NCBI GenBank assembly: GCA_022239325.1
Contig: JAKOGP010000001.1
Span: forward strand, 248,001-312,000
Reading direction: 5' to 3'
Length of the DNA: 64,000 nt
DNA from: Flavobacteriaceae bacterium LSUCC0859
GTDB taxonomy: Bacteria > Bacteroidota > Bacteroidia > Flavobacteriales > Flavobacteriaceae
The notes below the pieces were generated by a model. That model did no database searches, was not told where the DNA came from, and saw only the letters and a program-made list of their open reading frames with translations. The position numbers and the translations under genes are program-made. Below, in pieces: positions 5,537 through 56,400 of this stretch; the stretch's first letter is position 1; every line of letters begins with the position of its first letter.

Positions 5537-6401
5537 AATGGTATTTTTGGAAGATGGCAGAGGCTTTATTATGCGCCGCCTCAAAAGCCATCCATCGCAC
5601 CCTGTGTTCAATCTTTTGGCTGCTAAAATAGGAGAGCATTTTTTCTGTAGGCATGTTTCCAGTTAGGGCATCGGCTGCCATTGGGCAGCCTCCAAAACCT
5701 TGAATAGCACCGTCAAATCTCCTACATCCCGCTAGGTAGGCCGTGTGAATTTTATCTCTCCACTCTTGAGGTTTACAGTGTAAATGGGCCCCAAATTCTA
5801 TATTTGAATAGGCAGGAACCAAGCTTTCAAATAAAGCTTTAATATCGGTAGTGTGTGCACTTCCAACAGTGTCTGAAAGGGAGAGTATCTCCACACCCAT
5901 AGCCGCTAAACGCGCTGTCCATTCCTGGACAATTTCTGTACTCCAGGGGTCTCCATAAGGATTTCCAAACCCCATTGAAAGGTAAACCACCACTTTTTTA
6001 TGGGATTGATCTGCTAGGTTTAAAATCTCTGATAACACTTTTATGGCCTGGGAAATGGTGCTGTGGGTGTTCCTCATTTGAAAGTTTTCAGAAATGGAAA
6101 AAGGATAGCCTAGAAAATCAATTTCCGGATGAGAACAGGCTGCCATGGCACCCCTCACATTGGCCACAATAGCTAAAAGTTTTGTTGGGGTCTGAGAGAG
6201 ATCTAATCTCTCTAACACCGCTGCAGTGTCTGCCATTTGAGGAATGGCTTTGGGAGACACAAAACTTCCAAAATCTAAGCTGTGAAAATTACAATTTAAA
6301 AGAGACTGCAAATAGAGCACCTTCTCCTGAGTTGGGATAAAGGTTTTAATTCCTTGCATGGCGTCCCGGGGACACTCAATGATTTTAACAGCTGGATCCA
6401 T
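5535..6401 (-). CDS. mvaB: Hydroxymethylglutaryl-CoA lyase-like protein
   Basis: A 288-residue member of the HMGL/DRE-TIM metallolyase superfamily. Residues 11-16 (PRDAMQ) match the PRDGLQ active-site strand. Residues 46-58 (SFVSPKAIPQMAD), SLSDTVG (174-180), HLH (206-208) and GGCP with Cys239 match the metal and catalytic motifs of HMG-CoA lyase. That enzyme cleaves HMG-CoA to acetyl-CoA and acetoacetate in leucine degradation. The substitution of PRDGLQ by PRDAMQ is slightly unusual. The related pyruvate carboxyltransferases share the fold, so the substrate is an inference. It is the last gene of a minus-strand run with a LysE exporter and pyrD. Confidence 0.8.
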   Translation of the reverse strand: MDPAVKIIECPRDAMQGIKTFIPTQEKVLYLQSLLNCNFHSLDFGSFVSPKAIPQMADTAAVLERLDLSQTPTKLLAIVANVRGAMAACSHPEIDFLGYPFSISENFQMRNTHSTISQAIKVLSEILNLADQSHKKVVVYLSMGFGNPYGDPWSTEIVQEWTARLAAMGVEILSLSDTVGSAHTTDIKALFESLVPAYSNIEFGAHLHCKPQEWRDKIHTAYLAGCRRFDGAIQGFGGCPMAADALTGNMPTEKMLSYFSSQKIEHRVRWMAFEAAHNKASAIFQKYH

Positions 6402-28847: not shown

Positions 28848-28872
28848 ATACCCCCTATTTTTTATAGGTTAT
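28848..28872 (+). promoter_or_regulatory. Putative nitrogen-regulon operator, distal site before glnK-amt
   Basis: ATACCCCCTA, five spacer bases and TATAGGTTAT: the left arm is perfect and the right arm is degenerate compared with TAGGGGGTAT. It has the same 10-5-10 architecture as the site at 28901. The centres are 53 bp apart, about five helical turns, so a protein could bind both on one DNA face. Confidence 0.65.
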
Positions 28873-28900
28873 TATTTTCATATACATAAAAATAACAGCA

Positions 28901-28925
28901 ATACCCCCTAAAAATTAGGGGGTAT
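28901..28925 (+). promoter_or_regulatory. Putative nitrogen-regulon operator, proximal site before glnK-amt
   Basis: A perfect palindrome, ATACCCCCTA-AAAAT-TAGGGGGTAT. Eleven bases after it begins CATATTTT, a -7-like element. The palindrome covers the place where a -33 box would be. The glnK ATG is 53 bp beyond the palindrome. The glnA promoter shows the same layout. Confidence 0.75.
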
Positions 28926-28978
28926 TATATTAAAAACATATTTTCACGGCGTATTAACCTATAAATAATAACGCTTAG

Positions 28979-29317
28979 ATGAAAAAAGTAGAAGCCATTA
29001 TTAGAAAGTCAAAATTTGACGACGTCAAAAAGGCACTACACGCCATAGACGTGAATTTCTTTAGTTACTGGGATGTGACCGGGGTAGGAAATGAAAAACA
29101 AGGACATGTGTACAGAGGTATCTCTTATAGCACCTCAGACATACAACGTCGTTTTATCTCTATAGTGATCTCAGATGAGTTTTTAGATGTTACCATAAAT
29201 GCCATTTTAGAAGCCGCTGGTACCGGAAATGTTGGAGACGGAAAAATATTTGTCTCTGAAATTCAGGAGGCGTATCGCATTAGGACCAGAGAGAACGGAA
29301 AAGCAGGCATTAACTAA
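28979..29317 (+). CDS. glnK: PII nitrogen-regulatory protein
   Basis: A 112-residue trimeric PII signal protein that senses ATP/ADP and 2-oxoglutarate and gates the ammonium channel. It starts MKKVEAIIRKSKFDDVKKAL. The T-loop (about residues 36-55) keeps a tyrosine at position 50, equivalent to the uridylylated Tyr51 of E. coli, within VYRGISY. The ATP-binding B-loop is GTGNVGDGKIFV, and the C-loop contains RIRT. The adjoining amt gene (17 bp downstream) is its expected partner, so this is called glnK. Two palindromic operator-like sites lie upstream. Confidence 0.95.
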   Translation: MKKVEAIIRKSKFDDVKKALHAIDVNFFSYWDVTGVGNEKQGHVYRGISYSTSDIQRRFISIVISDEFLDVTINAILEAAGTGNVGDGKIFVSEIQEAYRIRTRENGKAGIN

Positions 29318-29334
29318 GAAAAATATATCATAAA

Positions 29335-30579
29335 ATGGAGACAGCAATTTTTACAGCAAATAACATATGGATGATGGTTTGTACCGCTTTGGTATTTTTC
29401 ATGCATCTAGGATTTTCTTTTTTAGAAATCGGACTAACCAGACAAAAAAACACCATAAACATCCTTTTTAAAAACGTATTTATTATCTGTATGGGTTTAC
29501 TCCTATACTACATTGGAGGCTTTAACCTCATGTATCCGGGAGATTTTAATGGCTATCTAGGCTTCGCCGGATTTGGAATTCCCTTACCTGAGGGAGGACT
29601 CACGGCAGATTACGCCTCTGGCGGATACACCTATTGGACAGATTTCCTATTCCAAGGCATGTTTGCTGCCACAGCAGCGACTATTGTTTCTGGAGCAGTA
29701 GCAGAACGCATAAAACTAGGTGGCTTTATGATTTTTACTCTAGTATATGTAGGATTGGTATATCCTATTGTAGGATCTTGGCAATGGGGTGGCGGTTTCT
29801 TAAGTAGCCTCGGTGGAGAAAACGGTGGTTTTCACGATTTTGCTGGCTCTACTCTAGTACATTCTGTTGGAGGCTGGGCCGCACTAATAGCCATATACCT
29901 CTTAGGACCTAGAATAGGTAAATTTGACGAGAACGGAAAAGCGCAAGCCATACCTGGTCACAATATTCCATTAGCCGCTGCAGGGGTGTTAATCCTGTGG
30001 TTGGGATGGTTCGGATTTAACGGAGGCTCTGTATTATCAGGAGATCCAGCCGGAACCTCATTAGTGCTAGTCACCACTTCTTTAGCAGCTGCAGCTGGAG
30101 GAATTGGGGCCTTTGTTCTTTCTACTATACTTTACAAAAACTATGACCTTACCATGTTTTTAAACGGAATTCTTGGTGGCCTAGTAGGTATTACAGCCGG
30201 GGCAGATCTCATGTCTCCCAATGAGGCCGTAATTATAGGATTACTTGCAGGAGCCCTTATTGTTTTGGCAGTAGCTTTTGTAGACAAAATTAAATTAGAT
30301 GACCCAGTAGGTGCGGTTGCTGTTCACTTAATATGTGGGATATTTGGCACACTCGCAGTAGGAGTTTTTGGAGCTAAAGCAGGCCTAGATCAATTCTTAT
30401 ATCAGCTCGCTGGGGTAGGTGCCACCGCTACTTTTTGTTCCCTAACTGCTTTTATTATCTTAATTGTTATAAAGAAAACAAGTGGCCTAAGGGTGTCAAA
30501 AGAAGAGGAATTAGAAGGCCTTGACTTACACGAACACGGAATGGACGCTTACGCAGACTTTAGATTGAACCAACACTAA
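29335..30579 (+). CDS. amt: Ammonium transporter
   Basis: A 414-residue Amt/MEP/Rh channel with 11 expected membrane helices. Visible blocks include WMMVCTALVFFMHLGFSFLEIGL, the FQGMFAATAATIVSGAVAERIK stretch, GSWQWGGGFL, AGSTLVHSVGGWAAL with the first pore histidine, and NGGSV followed by VHLICGIFGTLAVGVF with the second histidine region. It conducts ammonium into the cytoplasm and is normally blocked by deuridylylated GlnK. It is cotranscribed with glnK. A hairpin follows, with a porin gene 78 bp downstream. Confidence 0.97.
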   Translation: METAIFTANNIWMMVCTALVFFMHLGFSFLEIGLTRQKNTINILFKNVFIICMGLLLYYIGGFNLMYPGDFNGYLGFAGFGIPLPEGGLTADYASGGYTYWTDFLFQGMFAATAATIVSGAVAERIKLGGFMIFTLVYVGLVYPIVGSWQWGGGFLSSLGGENGGFHDFAGSTLVHSVGGWAALIAIYLLGPRIGKFDENGKAQAIPGHNIPLAAAGVLILWLGWFGFNGGSVLSGDPAGTSLVLVTTSLAAAAGGIGAFVLSTILYKNYDLTMFLNGILGGLVGITAGADLMSPNEAVIIGLLAGALIVLAVAFVDKIKLDDPVGAVAVHLICGIFGTLAVGVFGAKAGLDQFLYQLAGVGATATFCSLTAFIILIVIKKTSGLRVSKEEELEGLDLHEHGMDAYADFRLNQH

Positions 30580-30657: not shown

Positions 30658-31719
30658 ATGATTTTTAAAACTATTACAAATAAAGCAAAAATTTTAACAC
30701 TAAGCATGGTCATTACAGCAGTTACTATGACCCATGCACAGGAAGCAGAAACCCAAGCAGAGACCCCAAAGTTTAGTCTTAGTGGTACTATAGACGCCTA
30801 TTTTAGAGGCAACCTAAATGCACCAAATGCAGGGGAATTCACCATGGCTCCAGGAAGCTCATTTGCCCAACTATCCGGTTTTTCCTTAGGGATGGCCAAC
30901 CTAATTACCTCCTATGAAGGAGAAAAAGTAGGTTTTGTGGCAGATTTGGTATTTGGACCCAGAGGAACAGATGCTATTTTTAACTCTCCCATGTACTCTG
31001 CATCTGGAGATATAGTAAACCAGTTGTACATGTACTGGAATGTGAGTGAAAGTGTCACTTTAACCATGGGAAATTTTAATACCTTTTTGGGATATGAAGT
31101 AATATCTCCAGCAGCCAATTTTAACTACAGTACCTCCTATTTATTTTCATATGGCCCATTTAGTCATACAGGCTTGAAGGCAGATTTTGCCCTAAGTGAA
31201 GATCTTTCTGCTATGATTGGCGTATTTAACCAGACAGATATTACAGAGTACAATCCAACTGCTATATATGCCATTGGTGCCCAAATAGGTTATAAAGGAC
31301 AATACTTGAACTTCCTATCAGATTCAGGAGCCTTTGAAATTGACTATACTGGTGGGTTTAATCTATCTGAAAGTTTTTATTTGGGCTTAAACGCAGCTCA
31401 TTACGATAGCGACGGAACTGGATTTTCTGGAGTGGCACTTTACCCACAACTAAACACTTCAGAAACTTTTGCTATTGGGCTTAGAGGAGAATATTTTGCA
31501 GAGTCAGGAGCTTTTGGTGCAATTGACAGAACGGATAGTGTTGTGGAAAACAACAGTGTTTTTGCCCTAACACTTACAGGAAGTGCTTCTATCGGTAACC
31601 TGCTAATTAAGCCAGAAATTAGAATAGATAATGCCTCTGAAGATAGTTTCTTAGATACAAAATTTGCCCCACAAAAAAGCTTGTCTTCTTTTGTACTGGC
31701 AGCGGTATATGCTTTTTAA
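30658..31719 (+). CDS. Outer-membrane beta-barrel porin (BBP2/OmpL-like)
   Basis: A 353-residue protein with a signal peptide (residues 1-27, ending THAQ) and an acidic linker. The barrel has alternating amphipathic strands and ends in aromatic Phe (LAAVYAF). FSLSGTIDAYFRGNLN and QLSGFSLGMANLITSYEGEKVGFVADLVFGPRG resemble the putative beta-barrel porin-2 family. It lies directly after glnK-amt on the same strand. The location suggests it admits a nitrogen source through the outer membrane under the same control, but this is inference. A weak hairpin separates it from amt. Confidence 0.82.
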   Translation: MIFKTITNKAKILTLSMVITAVTMTHAQEAETQAETPKFSLSGTIDAYFRGNLNAPNAGEFTMAPGSSFAQLSGFSLGMANLITSYEGEKVGFVADLVFGPRGTDAIFNSPMYSASGDIVNQLYMYWNVSESVTLTMGNFNTFLGYEVISPAANFNYSTSYLFSYGPFSHTGLKADFALSEDLSAMIGVFNQTDITEYNPTAIYAIGAQIGYKGQYLNFLSDSGAFEIDYTGGFNLSESFYLGLNAAHYDSDGTGFSGVALYPQLNTSETFAIGLRGEYFAESGAFGAIDRTDSVVENNSVFALTLTGSASIGNLLIKPEIRIDNASEDSFLDTKFAPQKSLSSFVLAAVYAF

Positions 31720-33239: not shown

Positions 33240-33689
33240 TTATTTCACCTCAATAATAGGTGCAGATGAAACCACTTCAGACAACACAATATGTGTCCTG
33301 GTTTCTCCGTATTGAATGAGGGTGTCTATAAAGGTTTCCAAATGTTTCTGATCCCTTAAAACCACCTCCATCATGATGTTTTCATTTCCGGTAATTCTAT
33401 AGCAATTGATCACCTCTTTAAATGAGGGCACTACCTCTAAAAAAGGTTTTAACTTTCCCACAAAAGCGCGAAGGGTAATCATGGCTTTGAGCTGGTAGCC
33501 CATGTGGGTGTAGGACACCTTAGTGTTGTACTTTAAAATAACACCGGTGTCTTCTAATTTTTTCACCCGCTCTGCCACAGCAGGCGGGGTAAGCCCAATC
33601 GCACGACCCATCTCTGCAAAACTGGTTCTTGCTCCTTTTTGAAGGGCATGAACAATCTTGGCATTCAGTACATCTAACTTTTTAATCAT
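33240..33689 (-). CDS. Lrp/AsnC-family transcriptional regulator
   Basis: A 149-residue one-component regulator. The N-terminal winged helix (LDVLNAKIVHALQKGARTSFAEMGRAIGLTPPAVAERVKKLEDTGVI) is followed by a RAM ligand-binding domain (TLRAFVGKLKPFLEVVPSFKEVINCYRITGNENIMMEVVL). Such proteins form octamers and respond to amino acids. The target is unknown. The divergent gene at 33805 and an AT-rich 115-bp region with TATATTTG on the minus strand (33732-33739) suggest autoregulation. Confidence 0.93.
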   Translation of the reverse strand: MIKKLDVLNAKIVHALQKGARTSFAEMGRAIGLTPPAVAERVKKLEDTGVILKYNTKVSYTHMGYQLKAMITLRAFVGKLKPFLEVVPSFKEVINCYRITGNENIMMEVVLRDQKHLETFIDTLIQYGETRTHIVLSEVVSSAPIIEVK

Positions 33690-38402: not shown

Positions 38403-40598
38403 TTATTTTATTTGCAGCAACTCTCTGTATTTTAATAGCGGCCAATATCCGTCTGCTACCAGTCTCTCTAAGCGGTCTGCATGGCTTCTAATCTTGCTAA
38501 ATATAGGCTTTACCTCATTGGCATAGGCCAAGGCACGTTCTTGGGAGCTCTGTAGGGTGTTGGCTTTTTTTCTAGCGGCAGTCATTTGGTCTAGCTCCAT
38601 TTTTAGAGATTGAATATGGGTGTTTATAGTTTCTATTAACTGAGCCTGAGCGCTTGGAGCCCCTTTAAAAGTACCACCCAAATGCGCAGACAATTTACTG
38701 AGGTTTTCTAAGAGCTCATTCATATATGACACTCCTGCAGGCAGAATTTGAGTAAGTACCATCTCTTCGTATACGCGACCTTCAATTTGAGTGTGCATGG
38801 TGTAAGCCTCCCACTCTACCTCTTGTCTAGCCTTGAGCTCCTTCTCACTTAACACAGCGGTATCCTTAAAAAGTGCTATATGCCTTTTCTCGCTGAGAAC
38901 TGCAATAGCTTCTGGAGTGGTCCTTAGATGGCTTAGCTTTCTTTTGGCAGCCTCTTTTTCCCAGGCCTCACTGTATCCGTCCCCCTCAAAACGAATGCGC
39001 TTGGAAGATTTTATATACTCTCTAAGCACATTAAATATAGCCTCATCTTTTTTAAGTCCTTTCTGGTCTATTAAAGTGTCTACCTCTTTTTTGAACGCTT
39101 TTAGCTGATGCGCCACTGCCGTGTTCAAGACCGTCATGGGTTTGGCACAATTGGTCTTAGATCCTACCCCACGCATTTCAAATTTATTACCGGTAAAAGC
39201 AAAAGGAGAAGTTCTATTGCGGTCTGTATTGTCCATGAGAATTTCAGGGATTTTACCTACCACATTGAGCTTGAGTTCCGTTTTTTCTTGGGGTGACAAT
39301 TTACCCAAAGACACCCCTTCCAATTCATCTAAAACAGCAGAGAGCTGCTTGCCAATAAAAATAGAGAAAATAGCAGGTGGGGCCTCGTTGGCACCCAATC
39401 TATGGTCGTTACTGGCAGAAGCTATGGAAGATCTAAGTAAGGCTTCATAGCTATCTACTGCCTTTATGGTGTTAATGAAAAAAGTAAGGAATTGTAGATT
39501 TTTCATGGGGGTAGCTCCCGGACTTAATAAATTAACCCCTTCATTGGTAGCCAAAGACCAATTGTTGTGTTTCCCAGATCCATTAATACCTTCAAAGGGC
39601 TTTTCATGAAACAACACTTTTAAATGGTGCTTGTCTGCAATCTTTTCCATGACATCCATAAGAAGTAGGTTGTGGTCTACAGCCAAATTAGCCTCTTCAA
39701 AAACAGGAGCCAACTCAAACTGATTGGGAGCCACCTCATTGTGTCTGGTTTTCACTGGAATTCCCAAATGCATGCACTCCTTCTCCAACTCGCTCATAAA
39801 ACCAATCACCCTGGCTGGAATGACACCAAAGTAGTGGTCGTCTAACTGCTGCCCTTTGGCAGCAGTATGCCCCATAAGGGTCCTGCCACTTAAGGATAGA
39901 TCTATCCGAGCCGCGGCCATAGATTTGTCAATTAAAAAATATTCTTGTTCCCATCCCAGGGTAGCGTTAACTTTTGTCACGGTTTTGTCAAAGTACTTGG
40001 CTACTGCAGTAGCTGCTTGGTCTACTGCGTAAAGCGCTCTTAACAATGGCGCCTTATTGTCCAAGGCCTCTCCAGTGTAAGACACAAAAATAGTGGGAAT
40101 ACACAGGGTTGTTCCATATACAAAGGCTGGCGAACTGGGATCCCAGGCTGTATATCCTCTAGCTTCAAAGGTATTTCGAATACCGCCAGAAGGAAAGCTT
40201 GAGGCATCTGGTTCTTGCTGCACCAACTGCCCGCCTCCAAAAATTTCTAAGGCCTGGTTATCTTGTATGTCAAAAAATGCGTCGTGCTTTTCTGCTGTAG
40301 ATCCTGTGAGCGGTTGGAACCAATGGGTGTAATGGGTAGCCCCCATTTCTATAGCCCAAGATTTCATGCCTTCTGCCACCTGGTCTGCCAGCTTCCTGTC
40401 TATCTTAGATCCTGAAAATATAGCGTCCCTTACTGCCGCAATAGCGTCTTTTGTAAGGTATTGCAACATTTTATAATCGTTAAAAACATGACTAGCAAAT
40501 AAACTGGACCTCCTAGAAGGCTCAGATACAGACACCGCTTCTCTCTGTGAGCTTTGGTCCAAAGCATGCCACCTGGAATGGGTAAAATGTGGTTTCAT
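38403..40598 (-). CDS. glnN: Glutamine synthetase type III
   Basis: A 731-residue GSIII that forms glutamine from glutamate, ammonium and ATP. The family-specific N-terminus includes SLFASHVFNDYKMLQYLTKDA. GWEQEYFLID is the metal-binding strand, and HNEVAPNQFELAPVFEEANLAVDHN, GINGSGKHNNWSL and LGANEAPPAIFSIFIG are catalytic blocks. A long helical C-terminus is typical of the class. GSIII works as a dodecamer and is not controlled by adenylylation. The gene diverges from the GSII-like glnA across 182 bp that hold palindromic operator-like sites. The site at 40654 is 55 bp from this start. Confidence 0.96.
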   Translation of the reverse strand: MKPHFTHSRWHALDQSSQREAVSVSEPSRRSSLFASHVFNDYKMLQYLTKDAIAAVRDAIFSGSKIDRKLADQVAEGMKSWAIEMGATHYTHWFQPLTGSTAEKHDAFFDIQDNQALEIFGGGQLVQQEPDASSFPSGGIRNTFEARGYTAWDPSSPAFVYGTTLCIPTIFVSYTGEALDNKAPLLRALYAVDQAATAVAKYFDKTVTKVNATLGWEQEYFLIDKSMAAARIDLSLSGRTLMGHTAAKGQQLDDHYFGVIPARVIGFMSELEKECMHLGIPVKTRHNEVAPNQFELAPVFEEANLAVDHNLLLMDVMEKIADKHHLKVLFHEKPFEGINGSGKHNNWSLATNEGVNLLSPGATPMKNLQFLTFFINTIKAVDSYEALLRSSIASASNDHRLGANEAPPAIFSIFIGKQLSAVLDELEGVSLGKLSPQEKTELKLNVVGKIPEILMDNTDRNRTSPFAFTGNKFEMRGVGSKTNCAKPMTVLNTAVAHQLKAFKKEVDTLIDQKGLKKDEAIFNVLREYIKSSKRIRFEGDGYSEAWEKEAAKRKLSHLRTTPEAIAVLSEKRHIALFKDTAVLSEKELKARQEVEWEAYTMHTQIEGRVYEEMVLTQILPAGVSYMNELLENLSKLSAHLGGTFKGAPSAQAQLIETINTHIQSLKMELDQMTAARKKANTLQSSQERALAYANEVKPIFSKIRSHADRLERLVADGYWPLLKYRELLQIK

Positions 40599-40653
40599 AG
40601 GTTCTAATTAATAATAATGCAAAATAACAGCAAAAAATTATAATATTAATATT

Positions 40654-40678
40654 ATACCCCCTAAAATTAGAGGGGGTT
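40654..40678. promoter_or_regulatory. Putative nitrogen-regulon operator, glnN-proximal site
   Basis: Left arm ATACCCCCTA (40654-40663), then AAATT, then AGAGGGGGTT. The right arm is a near match to TAGGGGGTAT shifted by one base. On the glnN side a TAATTTTT element follows 13 bases away (minus strand), and the glnN ATG is 55 bp away. It lies 51 bp from the site at 40705. Confidence 0.65.
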
Positions 40679-40704: not shown

Positions 40705-40729
40705 ATACCCCTTCAATTTTTATGGGTAT
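40705..40729. promoter_or_regulatory. Putative nitrogen-regulon operator, glnA-proximal site
   Basis: ATACCCCTTC-AATTT-TTATGGGTAT, with the same 10-5-10 form as the glnK sites. TATATTTT begins 11 bases after it, as CATATTTT does before glnK, and the glnA ATG starts 52 bp beyond its right edge (the corresponding glnK gap is 54). Confidence 0.7.
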
Positions 40730-40780
40730 TCCTAAAATATTATATTTTTACCGGAGTTTTATAATCTAATCCATAATCTC

Positions 40781-41794
40781 ATGAGCAAAACTAAATTAGA
40801 GTATATCTGGCTAGACGGTTACACTCCAACTGCCAATCTTAGAAGCAAGACCAAAGTAGAAAACGACTTTTCAGGAAAATTGGAAGACTGCCCTATATGG
40901 TCTTTTGACGGAAGTTCTACCAAACAAGCAGAAGGAGGATCTTCTGATTGTCTTTTAAAGCCTGTTGCGATTTTCCCAGACCCTACCAGGAGAGACGCTT
41001 ATTTGGTAATGACAGAAGTACTCAATGCAGACGGTACCCCACACGCCTCTAACGCAAGAGCTACTATTGACGACGACGACAATGACTTCTGGTTCGGTTT
41101 TGAGCAAGAATACTTTATCATGGATAAGAAAACCCAACTTCCTTTAGGTTTCCCAGTGGGAGGTTACCCTGGTCCTCAAGGAATGTACTACTGCTCTGTG
41201 GGTGGGAAAAACACACACGGTAGAGATTTTGTAGAAGAGCACGCAGATCTATGTATAGACGCTGGATTAAACTTTGAAGGAATAAACCAAGAAGTAGCCT
41301 CTGGCCAATGGGAATTTCAACTATTTGCAAAGGGTGCCAAAAAAGCAGGTGACGAAATTTGGGTGGCTCGCTACCTATTAGATCGTCTCACTGAAAAATA
41401 CGGTTACTATATAGAATACCACCCAAAACCAGTAAAAGGAGATTGGAACGGCTCAGGTATGCACGCCAACTTCTCCAACAGCGTACTTAGAACCTGTGGT
41501 TCAGAAGAGACCTACAGAAAAATTTGTGAGGCCTTTAGACCCGTGGTGAAAGAACATATTGAGGTATACGGAGAATTTAACGACCAAAGATTAACTGGAC
41601 TGCACGAAACTGCGGCCATCACAGACTTTAGCTATGGAATTTCTGATAGAGGAGCCTCTATTCGTATTCCTATCATCACCGTAGAAAAAGGATGGAAAGG
41701 ATGGTTGGAAGACAGAAGACCTGCTTCTAATGGAGATCCATACAAAATTGCCGGACGTATTGTTAAAACCGTAAAGTCTGCCAATATTTCTTAA
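40781..41794 (+). CDS. glnA: Glutamine synthetase, eukaryotic-like GSII type
   Basis: A 337-residue synthetase with a beta-grasp N-terminus. KLEYIWLDGYTPTANLRSKTKV, WSFDGSSTKQAEGGSSDCLLKP, FGFEQEYFIM, GINQEVASGQWEFQ, NGSGMHANFSNS and DRGASIRIP correspond to the GSII blocks for glutamate, metal and nucleotide binding. GSII proteins are octamers or decamers and lack the adenylylation site of GSI. Having GSII and GSIII side by side, read divergently, implies joint nitrogen control. A strong terminator follows. Confidence 0.95.
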   Translation: MSKTKLEYIWLDGYTPTANLRSKTKVENDFSGKLEDCPIWSFDGSSTKQAEGGSSDCLLKPVAIFPDPTRRDAYLVMTEVLNADGTPHASNARATIDDDDNDFWFGFEQEYFIMDKKTQLPLGFPVGGYPGPQGMYYCSVGGKNTHGRDFVEEHADLCIDAGLNFEGINQEVASGQWEFQLFAKGAKKAGDEIWVARYLLDRLTEKYGYYIEYHPKPVKGDWNGSGMHANFSNSVLRTCGSEETYRKICEAFRPVVKEHIEVYGEFNDQRLTGLHETAAITDFSYGISDRGASIRIPIITVEKGWKGWLEDRRPASNGDPYKIAGRIVKTVKSANIS

Positions 41795-53490: not shown

Positions 53491-56400
53491 TTAAAATTTA
53501 AGGTTTACGTTCATACCTATAGTTCTTGGGACGGGCATACCAAACCACTCTAATCCTTGAGAATTGCTTACATTGTAACCAGACTCTGGGTCTACATTTT
53601 CTACGCTATTAGACAAGAAAAATAAATTTCTTCCAATAAGTGAAACAGAGGCAGATTTAATAAATGTATTTTCCAATACTGCTCTAGGAATGGTATAACC
53701 TATACTCATCTGTCTGAGTCTTAAATAGTCTGCATCATAGATAGCCTCTTCCGCTATTTCATAAGTACGTCTCCAATAATCTTCAATCCTATCTGGCGCA
53801 ATAGTTGTAGTAAAGGCTGCACCGCTGGCGTCTACACCAGAGACTGTAAATCCGTTTTCACGGCCGTCTCCATCTATAGTGGCTTTGTGAACTCCAAAAT
53901 ATTTAGACATGGCATTGGTACCGGAGTACATTTGTCCGCCGTATTTACCCTCTACCAATACGCTCATATTGAAGTTTTTATATCTAAAGTTATTGCTAAT
54001 ACCAACGGAAGTTGGAGAAACACCAAAACCTAAGATTTTTCTGGCTCCTACCTGAGGTATGGGAGTACCATCTGGTTCTATGTCATGTATAATTCTACCT
54101 TGAGCATCTCTGTTATAAGAGGTTCCAAATAAGGCGCCATAGGTTTCCCCTACAATATGGGTCACATTTAAGTTTCTAGATCTGGGCTCGTCCATACTAA
54201 TATTGGTTCCCTCGTCATTGGTAGAAACTATTTTAGAGTCATTGTAAGAGTAGTTTAATGTTACATCCCAAGCAAAATCTTCTGTTCTGATAGGAGAACC
54301 ACTTAAAAGTACCTCATAACCCGTATTGGAAACTTCTCCCAGATTCGCTAAAGCACTTCCATAACCAGAAGTTGGAGAAGCACTTACACCAACAATATCA
54401 CCCTCAGTAGCATTGTCATAGTAGGTAAAGTCTAGAGAAAGTCTGCTGTCAAACATTCTAAGGTCAAAACCAAATTCCAATTCATTTTTCTCAAATGGTG
54501 TAATATTTGGATTTGGGATAGACCCGTTAGAAATGGTGCCTAAAGAAGCTCCTTGATGGCCTTGTCCGTATATACCATAGGTTAGGTTCAAGGTGTAGGG
54601 AGAATCTGCCCCACCTGCAACCTGAGAATAACCGGCTCTAATTTTAGCAAAAGTAATAGACTCTGGCAACTGGAACATATCTGACAATACCCAGGAGAAA
54701 CTCGCTGAGGTAAATAAATCATTGTTCGGGGTTTCTTTACCAGGAAGAGACAAGGTAGAGAACCAGTCATTTCTAGCAGTAAGTGTTAAATACACTGCGT
54801 CTTTAAAACCAAATTCTGCAGATCCATAGGCAGAGTTTATTTGTCTCTCGTTAAATCCGTAACCCGTATTTTGGTTTTGGGTGTTTTTTACATTGTATAA
54901 AAACGGAACAATAAAGTTTCCACCACTTGCAGTTACGGACTCTCCACTTTGGTAGTTTTTACCAATACCTGCAAAAGCAGTGAGAGAGAAGTCTTCCGCT
55001 ATTTTTAGGTTATCTGTCCCAAAAAATAAATCTGCATCTCTTTGCACATTTGTGAGTTTGTACTCATTCATAGACCCCAATGGCTGGTAAGCCGTTCCAT
55101 ATGGAGTAATGTCTGTTCTGTGATAATCAAATCGGTCTTGACCAAAACGCCCAGACAGGTATAAATAATCTGTGAGATCCCATCTGAGGTTAGCAGATGC
55201 AATCACACGCTCTTTTACAGAGTTGTTCACATATTGCCATGCAGCAAACCATGGGTTTTGAGAATATGTATTGTCTGAGGTTCTAAACTCAGTACCGTCT
55301 TCGTTGGTTCCAAGACCTCCTGCACCCAGCATGTCATTTACATCTATAGAAGGCGCAAATAATCTCATACCAAAGTTGGCGTTACCAGGAGAATCTGACA
55401 ACCTTGGAGAACCCACGGCGTCATCTTGAATGTACTTGATATTTACATCTGCCGTAAAGTTTCTAAACTTCTGAGAAGCATTTAAACCAAGGGTATTTCT
55501 AAGTAAGGTAGAGTTAGGGATAATGTCTGTATTGTCTAAGTTAGAGTAGGACACACGAACATTAGATTTCTCTGAAGCAGAGGAAATCGCTACGGTGTTA
55601 ATAAAGGTCTGACCACCGTCATAAAATTTCTTCAAATTATTTCCTTTATAAGAGTAAGGTCTGGCTACACCATCCCATTGTTCTACCAGAGAACCATTCA
55701 TTCTAGGTCCCCAGTTGGCATAGGTGTCTAAATTGTCAGAGTCTGTCACAAAATCTCTACCTTGCCCATAGGTGGTTTGAGGATCAAAAGGATCGTTATT
55801 AATGTCGTCAAATTGTATAGAACTACTTACGTCTACGGAGACACCATCAGAACCAGCTCCGGTTTTGGTGGTGATAATAATCACACCATTGGAGGCTCTA
55901 GATCCGTAAAGAGCTGCTGCAGCACCACCTTTTAGTACAGAAATAGATTCTACTTCATCTGGGTTTAAGGCAGAAATACCATCACCAGAGTCAGATCCAC
56001 CCCAGGTTCCAGCAGAACCTAAATTGGAGTTGTTAATGGTAATACCGTCAATCACATACAGTGGTTGGTTATTTCCAGTTAAAGAACTGTTACCCCTAAT
56101 AATAACTCGGGTAGAACCTTTTGCTCCTGTGGCGTTTCCGGAAATCTGTACCCCTGCAATTTTACCTTGTAAAGAATTAATGGCGTTAGTTTCCTTAATA
56201 GCATTTACTTCGTCTCCACCAACTTGGGTAACAGAGTACCCCAATGCTTTGGTGTTACGTTTTACCCCAAGAGCAGTAACCACCACTTCTCCCAACATTT
56301 CTGCGTCTTCAGAAAGCGTTACGTTTAAGCTAGAGGAACTTCCAACAACAACTTCTTTTGTAGTGTATCCTAGAGATGTAAATACTAGAATGGCATTGTT

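Follow-up and report, generated by a model that had tools for sequence, protein, structure and literature searches.

The window, by which we mean the whole 64,000-nucleotide stretch of DNA that was analysed, contains four dyads that belong to a single family, TACCCC-N(9-12)-GGGGTA, whose middle is rich in A and T. One pair of these dyads precedes glnK-amt-porin, while another pair is located between the divergent genes glnN and GSII. The genes and sites are arranged as follows:

28848..28872, distal dyad of glnK, ATACCCCCTATTTTTTATAGGTTAT; right half degenerate, two mismatches to ATACCCC-N11-GGGGTAT
28901..28925, proximal dyad of glnK, perfect ATACCCCCTA-N5-TAGGGGGTAT; spans about -50 to -26
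28979..29317, plus strand, glnK (P-II; Pfam PF00543)
29335..30579, plus strand, amt, ammonium transporter (Pfam PF00909, TIGR00836)
30658..31719, plus strand, BBP2 outer-membrane porin (Pfam PF07642)
38403..40598, minus strand, glnN, type III glutamine synthetase (Pfam GSIII_N, Gln-synt_C and C-ter)
40654..40678, glnN-proximal dyad, ATACCCCCTAAAATTAGAGGGGGTT; centre 40666.5
40705..40729, GSII-proximal dyad, ATACCCCTTCAATTTTTATGGGTAT; centre 40717
40781..41794, plus strand, GSII-type glutamine synthetase (GlnII-like; Pfam GS catalytic and beta-grasp)

The product of the GSII gene scored 393.7 bits against NF041605 (NCBIfam), which is below the cut-off of 500, and the GlnK of the window is 92% identical to that of strain MS024-3C (L093). 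A gene of the Lrp/AsnC family (33240-33689, minus strand) lies between the amt operon and glnN. Many other genomes have a porin-glnK-amt operon that opens with the porin gene, and the site pair then precedes this gene.

The preliminary description of this DNA had placed two dyads before glnK, a perfect one at 28901-28925 and a degenerate one at 28848-28872, with centres 53 bp apart. These coordinates were confirmed (centres 28913 and 28860). The same motif had been reported before glnN and glnA, and it was indeed found at the two positions between glnN and GSII, with centres 50.5 bp apart. With up to three mismatches the motif was matched at seven places in the window, where 1.75 were expected and none of 100 shuffled sequences reached seven; the window dyads are not attributable to chance. 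On a gap-tolerant dyad score, the sites centred at 28913, 40666 and 40717 reached 20, 18.5 and 17, respectively, and another place scoring 17, at 56102, is inside a gene. The distal glnK dyad is weak when taken alone, since its score of 14.75 equals that of three places within ORFs (34495, 51758 and 56247). Its support comes from the conserved spacing: many orthologous promoters have another site upstream of the proximal one, at 52-54 bp. The proximal glnK dyad is kept in the sister species, at an equal distance to the glnK start. A palindrome by itself is no proof, as perfect 10-N5-10 palindromes occur six times in the window (0.175 per shuffle), and the case is instead made by recurrence before orthologous genes. 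Throughout the genome to which the window belongs, a two-mismatch search was uninformative, returning 90 places versus 69 with the reversed control, and a one-mismatch search returned eight places, two in the promoters of the window and six inside genes.

Genes behind the site in other genomes

A scan of relatives for a dominance of nitrogen genes had been set beforehand as the check on a nitrogen regulon, and such a dominance was observed. When TACCCCCTA-N5-TAGGGGGTA was searched with up to two mismatches, 12 of 60 relatives (own genome included) gave a match, compared with 2 of 60 for the reversed pattern. Ten of these 12 sites precede glnK-amt (seven) or glnN (three), and the other two lie inside genes. 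An exact-pattern scan over a collection of 84,980 species returned at least 118 stretches. Among the matches listed, 26 belong to Bacteroidota, and 24 of these precede nitrogen-assimilation genes, namely glnK-amt (11), glnN (6), alanine dehydrogenase (4), gltB (1), amt (1) and, in one case, porin-glnK-amt beside a divergent gltB. The remaining two, L081 and L083, gave no clear assignment. Two of the 26 loci (L040 and L093) are from genomes already matched among the 60 relatives. The Bacteroidota with exact sites include Lutibacter, Robiginitalea, Gillisia and Gilvibacter, as well as single records titled Saprospiraceae, Cytophagaceae and Bacteroides (glnN). In record L081, a pair of sites 56 bp apart (5654-5730) was seen before a 101-aa ORF; this locus also has glnK-amt with a pair of its own.

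A two-site pattern, consisting of a right half, 28-34 bp and a full site, matched 153 of 299 family genomes, whereas the reversed control matched 37 of 299. The first 30 two-site loci precede glnN/GSII, the divergent gltB and porin-glnK-amt, ald or glnK in 27 cases. Among 60 further loci chosen by the analyst, 50 precede such nitrogen genes, nine do not, and the remaining one lies upstream of an ORF that reads as a distant Amt. The degenerate distal glnK site leaves the own genome without a match to the strict two-site pattern. One Flavobacteriaceae genome of the phylum sample has a site flanked by two divergent genes that read as ureA and urtA; here and elsewhere, gltB, ald, ureA and urtA were named from sequence reading rather than from a family search. 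A near-perfect pattern was present in 2 of the 392 genomes of this sample, one of them the own genome, which indicates that strong sites are uncommon outside some lineages. The breadth of the site beyond Flavobacteriales is borne by few records.

Loci with glnK or glnN, the own genome included, were also fetched by protein similarity alone, and a site was counted at a score of at least 15. Sites were present in 15 of the 26 usable glnK upstream regions (mean of 2% in shuffles) and in 31 of the 43 usable glnN upstream regions (mean of 1%). Pairs 50-55 bp apart were present in 13 of the 26 and 8 of the 43 regions, versus 0 and 0.1% in shuffles. Eleven glnK loci lacked a site, and five of these carry a pair before an upstream porin gene that opens the operon; 12 of the 43 glnN regions have no site of score 15, some of them having weaker sites or half-sites. 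Within 18 nitrogen-gene neighbourhoods (346 kb), all intergenic sites with a score of at least 15 and a middle of at least 70% A+T precede nitrogen genes; one of them (L503:7708, genome G463) stands before an ORF that reads like a second ammonium transporter gene, amt. When all ORF upstream regions in the fetched loci were counted, 64 of 182 had a site. This control neither supports nor weakens the case and was discarded, since divergent and neighbouring genes share the nitrogen promoters. The same motif thus stands before several unlinked ammonium-assimilation genes and is conserved across species, as is generally asked of a nitrogen regulon.

Promoter geometry and probable mode of action

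The core of the dyad is ACCCC-N9-12-GGGGT, with 11 and 10 as the commonest gaps, and its outer ACCCC letters are the most conserved. In a set of 93 promoters, which takes in motif-found loci and near relatives, 39 pairs are spaced 52-54 bp apart, while any other single spacing occurs at most six times. The claim of a preferred spacing is based on this set, because a separate list of 91 pairs had been preselected for 49-56 bp. Four sites in a row, spaced 51, 52.5 and 53.5 bp, are present in record L074. Words of the TTATCAA/TGATAAA type recur between the paired sites, chiefly in the promoters between gltB and the porin gene (e.g. L230, L284), and TTATCAA is found in about 22 of the 91 preselected pairs versus about 1.8 in shuffles. 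Such words may reflect either shared ancestry or a third binding site.

The position of the promoter box TAnnTTTG, -12 to -5, was taken from PMC9723704, a report on sigma-factor motifs of Flavobacterium psychrophilum. In 71 promoters aligned on the proximal site, boxes with up to one mismatch peak at 28-32 bp, mostly in glnK and some glnN promoters, and at 40-42 bp in glnN promoters. Perfect boxes are found at 28-30 bp in 12 of 21 glnK promoters, at 29-30 bp in 13 of 28 porin promoters and at 28-32 bp in 8 of 19 GSII promoters, with the GSII orthologues peaking at 30 bp, and there is one at urtA, at 30 bp. In the 22 glnN promoters the perfect boxes are scattered (four at 29-31 bp, two at 40, four at 51-52 and six at 59-67), and they are absent from all 34 gltB promoters and present in one of eight ald promoters. 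Given box distances of about 30 or 40-42 bp, the centre of the proximal site comes to lie near -38 or, for many glnN genes, near -49. The boxes predicted in the window fit the general spacing:

28939..28946, plus strand, predicted -7 box of glnK, TATTTTCA; two of the six conserved letters differ from TAnnTTTG; 29.5 bp from the centre of the proximal site
40620..40627, minus strand, predicted -7 box of glnN, TTATTTTG; centre 43 bp from the glnN-proximal site; among several one-mismatch candidates
40743..40750, plus strand, predicted -7 box of GSII, TATTTTTA; 29.5 bp from the centre of the GSII-proximal site; among three one-mismatch candidates

The position of the glnK box was deduced from the sister species, which have TATGTTTA/TAAGTTTA at about 29. 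It follows from the box positions that the site proximal to glnN is at the same time the distal site of GSII, and vice versa; GSII has a proximal site of its own. The sigma-54 -24/-12 pattern GG-N10-GC is absent from the glnK, glnN and GSII promoters of the window, and TGG-N10-GC occurs in 1 of the 93 orthologous promoters.

The site, its pairing and spacing, its target genes, its conservation and its distance to the -7 box are matters of direct observation. They support the earlier proposal of an operator of a nitrogen regulon, bound by a possible activator or repressor, and the promoter geometry speaks for the former. We consider it probable that many Flavobacteriales share a nitrogen-assimilation regulon with these sites as its operators, in which a protein bound to the pairs activates primary-sigma promoters. 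According to this model, a symmetric DNA-binding protein, probably a dimer, would occupy two dyads about five helical turns apart; its proximal site has its centre near -38 at glnK, porin, GSII and urt, and near -49 at glnN. The bound protein would activate a primary-sigma promoter with a TAnnTTTG-like -7 box, and the one pair between glnN and GSII would serve both divergent promoters. In this model a single regulator, responding to nitrogen status, would serve all targets. Counting against the model are the glnN regions that lack a site, the rarity of near-perfect sites in the phylum sample, the scatter of perfect -7 boxes at glnN with their absence at gltB and scarcity at ald, and the ability of the perfect dyad to form an RNA hairpin. 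The activator reading is suggested by a site beside or over -33, by its two positions about one turn apart, by the near-constant distance to the -7 box and by the second site five turns upstream.

Conversely, the bound protein could be a repressor that is released under nitrogen starvation, or the two sites could act oppositely. As the preliminary description had noted, and as was borne out, the proximal glnK site covers -33; this is also the case at porin promoters, and a repressor placed there could exclude the polymerase. However, the -7 box is left uncovered by the site in the aligned promoters, and at many glnN genes the site is about one helical turn higher, near -49, so that -33 is free. 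This upstream shift speaks for activation rather than repression. Moreover, distances of about 30 and 40-42 bp recur, which looks like activator phasing, and a repressor need not keep the helical phase. We therefore regard repression or opposite action as unlikely.

Candidate regulators and the terminator reading

Bacteroidota play a major part in polymer degradation both in the sea and in the gut. To our knowledge, no transcriptional nitrogen regulator has been described for this phylum. The preliminary description knew of no factor with this site, and our search of an open-access library likewise returned neither such a factor nor a Bacteroidota nitrogen regulator with this motif. The available parts of PMC9723704 and PMC12316311 (sigma-54 regulons) make no mention of such a regulon. 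Apparently, the shared nitrogen switch of flavobacteria is so far undescribed. A site that marks the assimilation genes opens a way to find the regulator and to predict the regulon in uncultured relatives.

Regulators of the CRP, GerE, short MerR and Lrp/AsnC families were compared across 22 genomes. Those counted as site-less were G041, G047, G054 and G058, each with a single loose match that is terminator-like or lies inside an ORF; G046 and G056, where the first of several matches was inspected; G043; and the 0.3-Mb G051, which has no match. No CRP, GerE or Lrp/AsnC orthologue group fully matches the distribution of the site in the 22 genomes or, for Lrp/AsnC, also in the 60 relatives. The CRP family was rejected as it offers no common orthologue: G463, G004 and G044/G057 hold different ones and G045 (92% complete) holds none. 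The GerE (NarL/LuxR) family was set aside too, being absent from G045 and represented in G004/G002 by members that are not orthologous to that of G000. As to a regulator conserved beside the nitrogen genes, the group of the Lrp encoded in the window was found near amt in L501, L502, L506 and L512, that is, in 5 of the 19 neighbourhoods compared (window included), and it is present in 5 of the 22 genomes; this candidate was rejected. Another ORF, read as a response regulator of the sigma-54 type, was shared by 3 of the 19 neighbourhoods. An autoregulated regulator gene was also sought in 497 kb of sequence surrounding other regulator genes (161 loci, partly overlapping), where no convincing site was detected; the one AT-centred intergenic site with a score of at least 14 is terminator-like.

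An AsnC-like Lrp (G000:C6:135740-136216), which would bind CCCTA-W5-TAGGG, has a small chance of being the regulator. An orthologue with at least 59% identity is present in 41 of the 60 relatives, and the six of the 22 genomes without any Lrp also seem to lack nitrogen sites. The group follows the sites well among these 22, G045 excepted; its helix is alike by eye where the sites are canonical, and AT-centred 15-bp dyads are typical of Lrp. Nevertheless, good glnN sites are found in G042 (99% complete) and G045 (92%), which have no orthologue of this Lrp, several of the 60 relatives carry it without a strong glnN site, and the outer ACCCC being the best-conserved letters of the dyad counts against an Lrp. 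For a regulator, this protein (L447, L465) is unusually conserved, with 92-99% identity in the genus genomes where it was found and, for most of the other family genomes with an orthologue, 79-96%.

We give similarly little weight to a near-universal short MerR protein of about 110 aa, which would be a counterpart of GlnR/TnrA. Among the families tested, it alone occurs in all site-bearing genomes of the 22, including G045. Dyads of the form ACC-N10-12-GGT are characteristic of MerR operators, and GlnR and TnrA are themselves MerR proteins, which act on glnRA and amtB-glnK. Yet it is found in 21 of the 22 genomes, including site-less ones, where it has the usual helix, whereas its helix, compared by eye, differs in G044/G057, which have perfect sites. 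Its presence accordingly accompanies the site throughout the 22 genomes, but its helix does not covary with it. The genes next to it were read as M23 peptidase and, in G045, LemA protein, which gives no hint of nitrogen.

It is most improbable that the hairpin-forming dyads are instead intrinsic terminators or RNA elements, for example at the end of crcB. The perfect dyad does fold as an RNA hairpin (-17.4 kcal/mol), and a terminator pattern scan lists it on both strands (five such sites in the region versus 0.5 in shuffles). In addition, the identical 23-mer is terminator-like in other bacteria. Matches listed outside Bacteroidota number 92 (85 SAR11, five Acinetobacter, one Paraclostridium and one Sphingomonadales), and with 92 of at least 118 stretches lying there, the exact 23-mer was rejected as a universal signature. 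In nearly all of the 85 SAR11 records listed, a gene of about 412 codons ends 15-16 bp before it, and a T run usually comes after it; in the five Acinetobacter records listed it lies between convergent ORFs. Both look like terminators. In Pelagibacteraceae (among L028-L144, e.g. L100:681-703), the two genes flanking the hairpin were read as coding for a branched-chain amino-acid binding protein and its permease, and this conserved SAR11 hairpin is probably an internal terminator. These cases are a warning against exact-match surveys without context. In the window, however, the tails of the dyad, TATTATATTA (plus strand) and CTGTTATTTT (minus strand), have no proper T run adjoining the stem, unlike in SAR11 and Acinetobacter, where the features expected of a terminator (a T run by the hairpin, a place after a gene end) are found. 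Furthermore, pairs of fixed spacing also occur between divergent genes, where nothing needs terminating, and Rfam gave no match.

Comparison with known nitrogen systems

The proposed regulon resembles the NtrC/sigma-54 regulon in having paired dyads before glnA and glnK-amtB, but it differs in that there is no -24/-12 promoter and the sites are close to a sigma-A type -7 box. With Lrp/AsnC systems it shares AT-centred dyads, regularly spaced multiple sites and a connection to amino-acid metabolism, whereas known Lrp/AsnC sites are 15 bp long and the best Lrp candidate is absent from two site-bearing genomes. In cyanobacteria, NtcA is a CRP-family global activator of amt, gln and glt that recognizes a GTA-N8-TAC dyad. 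The NtcA regulon likewise has dyad operators, near -41, at primary-sigma promoters, but the flavobacterial dyad reads ACCCC-N9-12-GGGGT, and the site-bearing genomes have no CRP orthologue in common. GlnR and TnrA have the half-site TGTNA-N7-TNACA, and TnrA of Bacillus activates from about -50. The half-site here is another one, and the distribution of the near-universal short MerR protein does not follow it; still, dyads stand before amtB-glnK and glnA in both systems, and the position of TnrA resembles the glnN arrangement described here. In its widest form, which we put forward tentatively and at slightly less than even chances, the model would give Bacteroidota a master nitrogen activator of their own, unrelated to NtrC, NtcA, GlnR/TnrA and AmtR, which would recognize dyads at a spacing of five helical turns, in pairs or, in one record, four in succession, and would drive the whole ammonium-assimilation set from sigma-A promoters.
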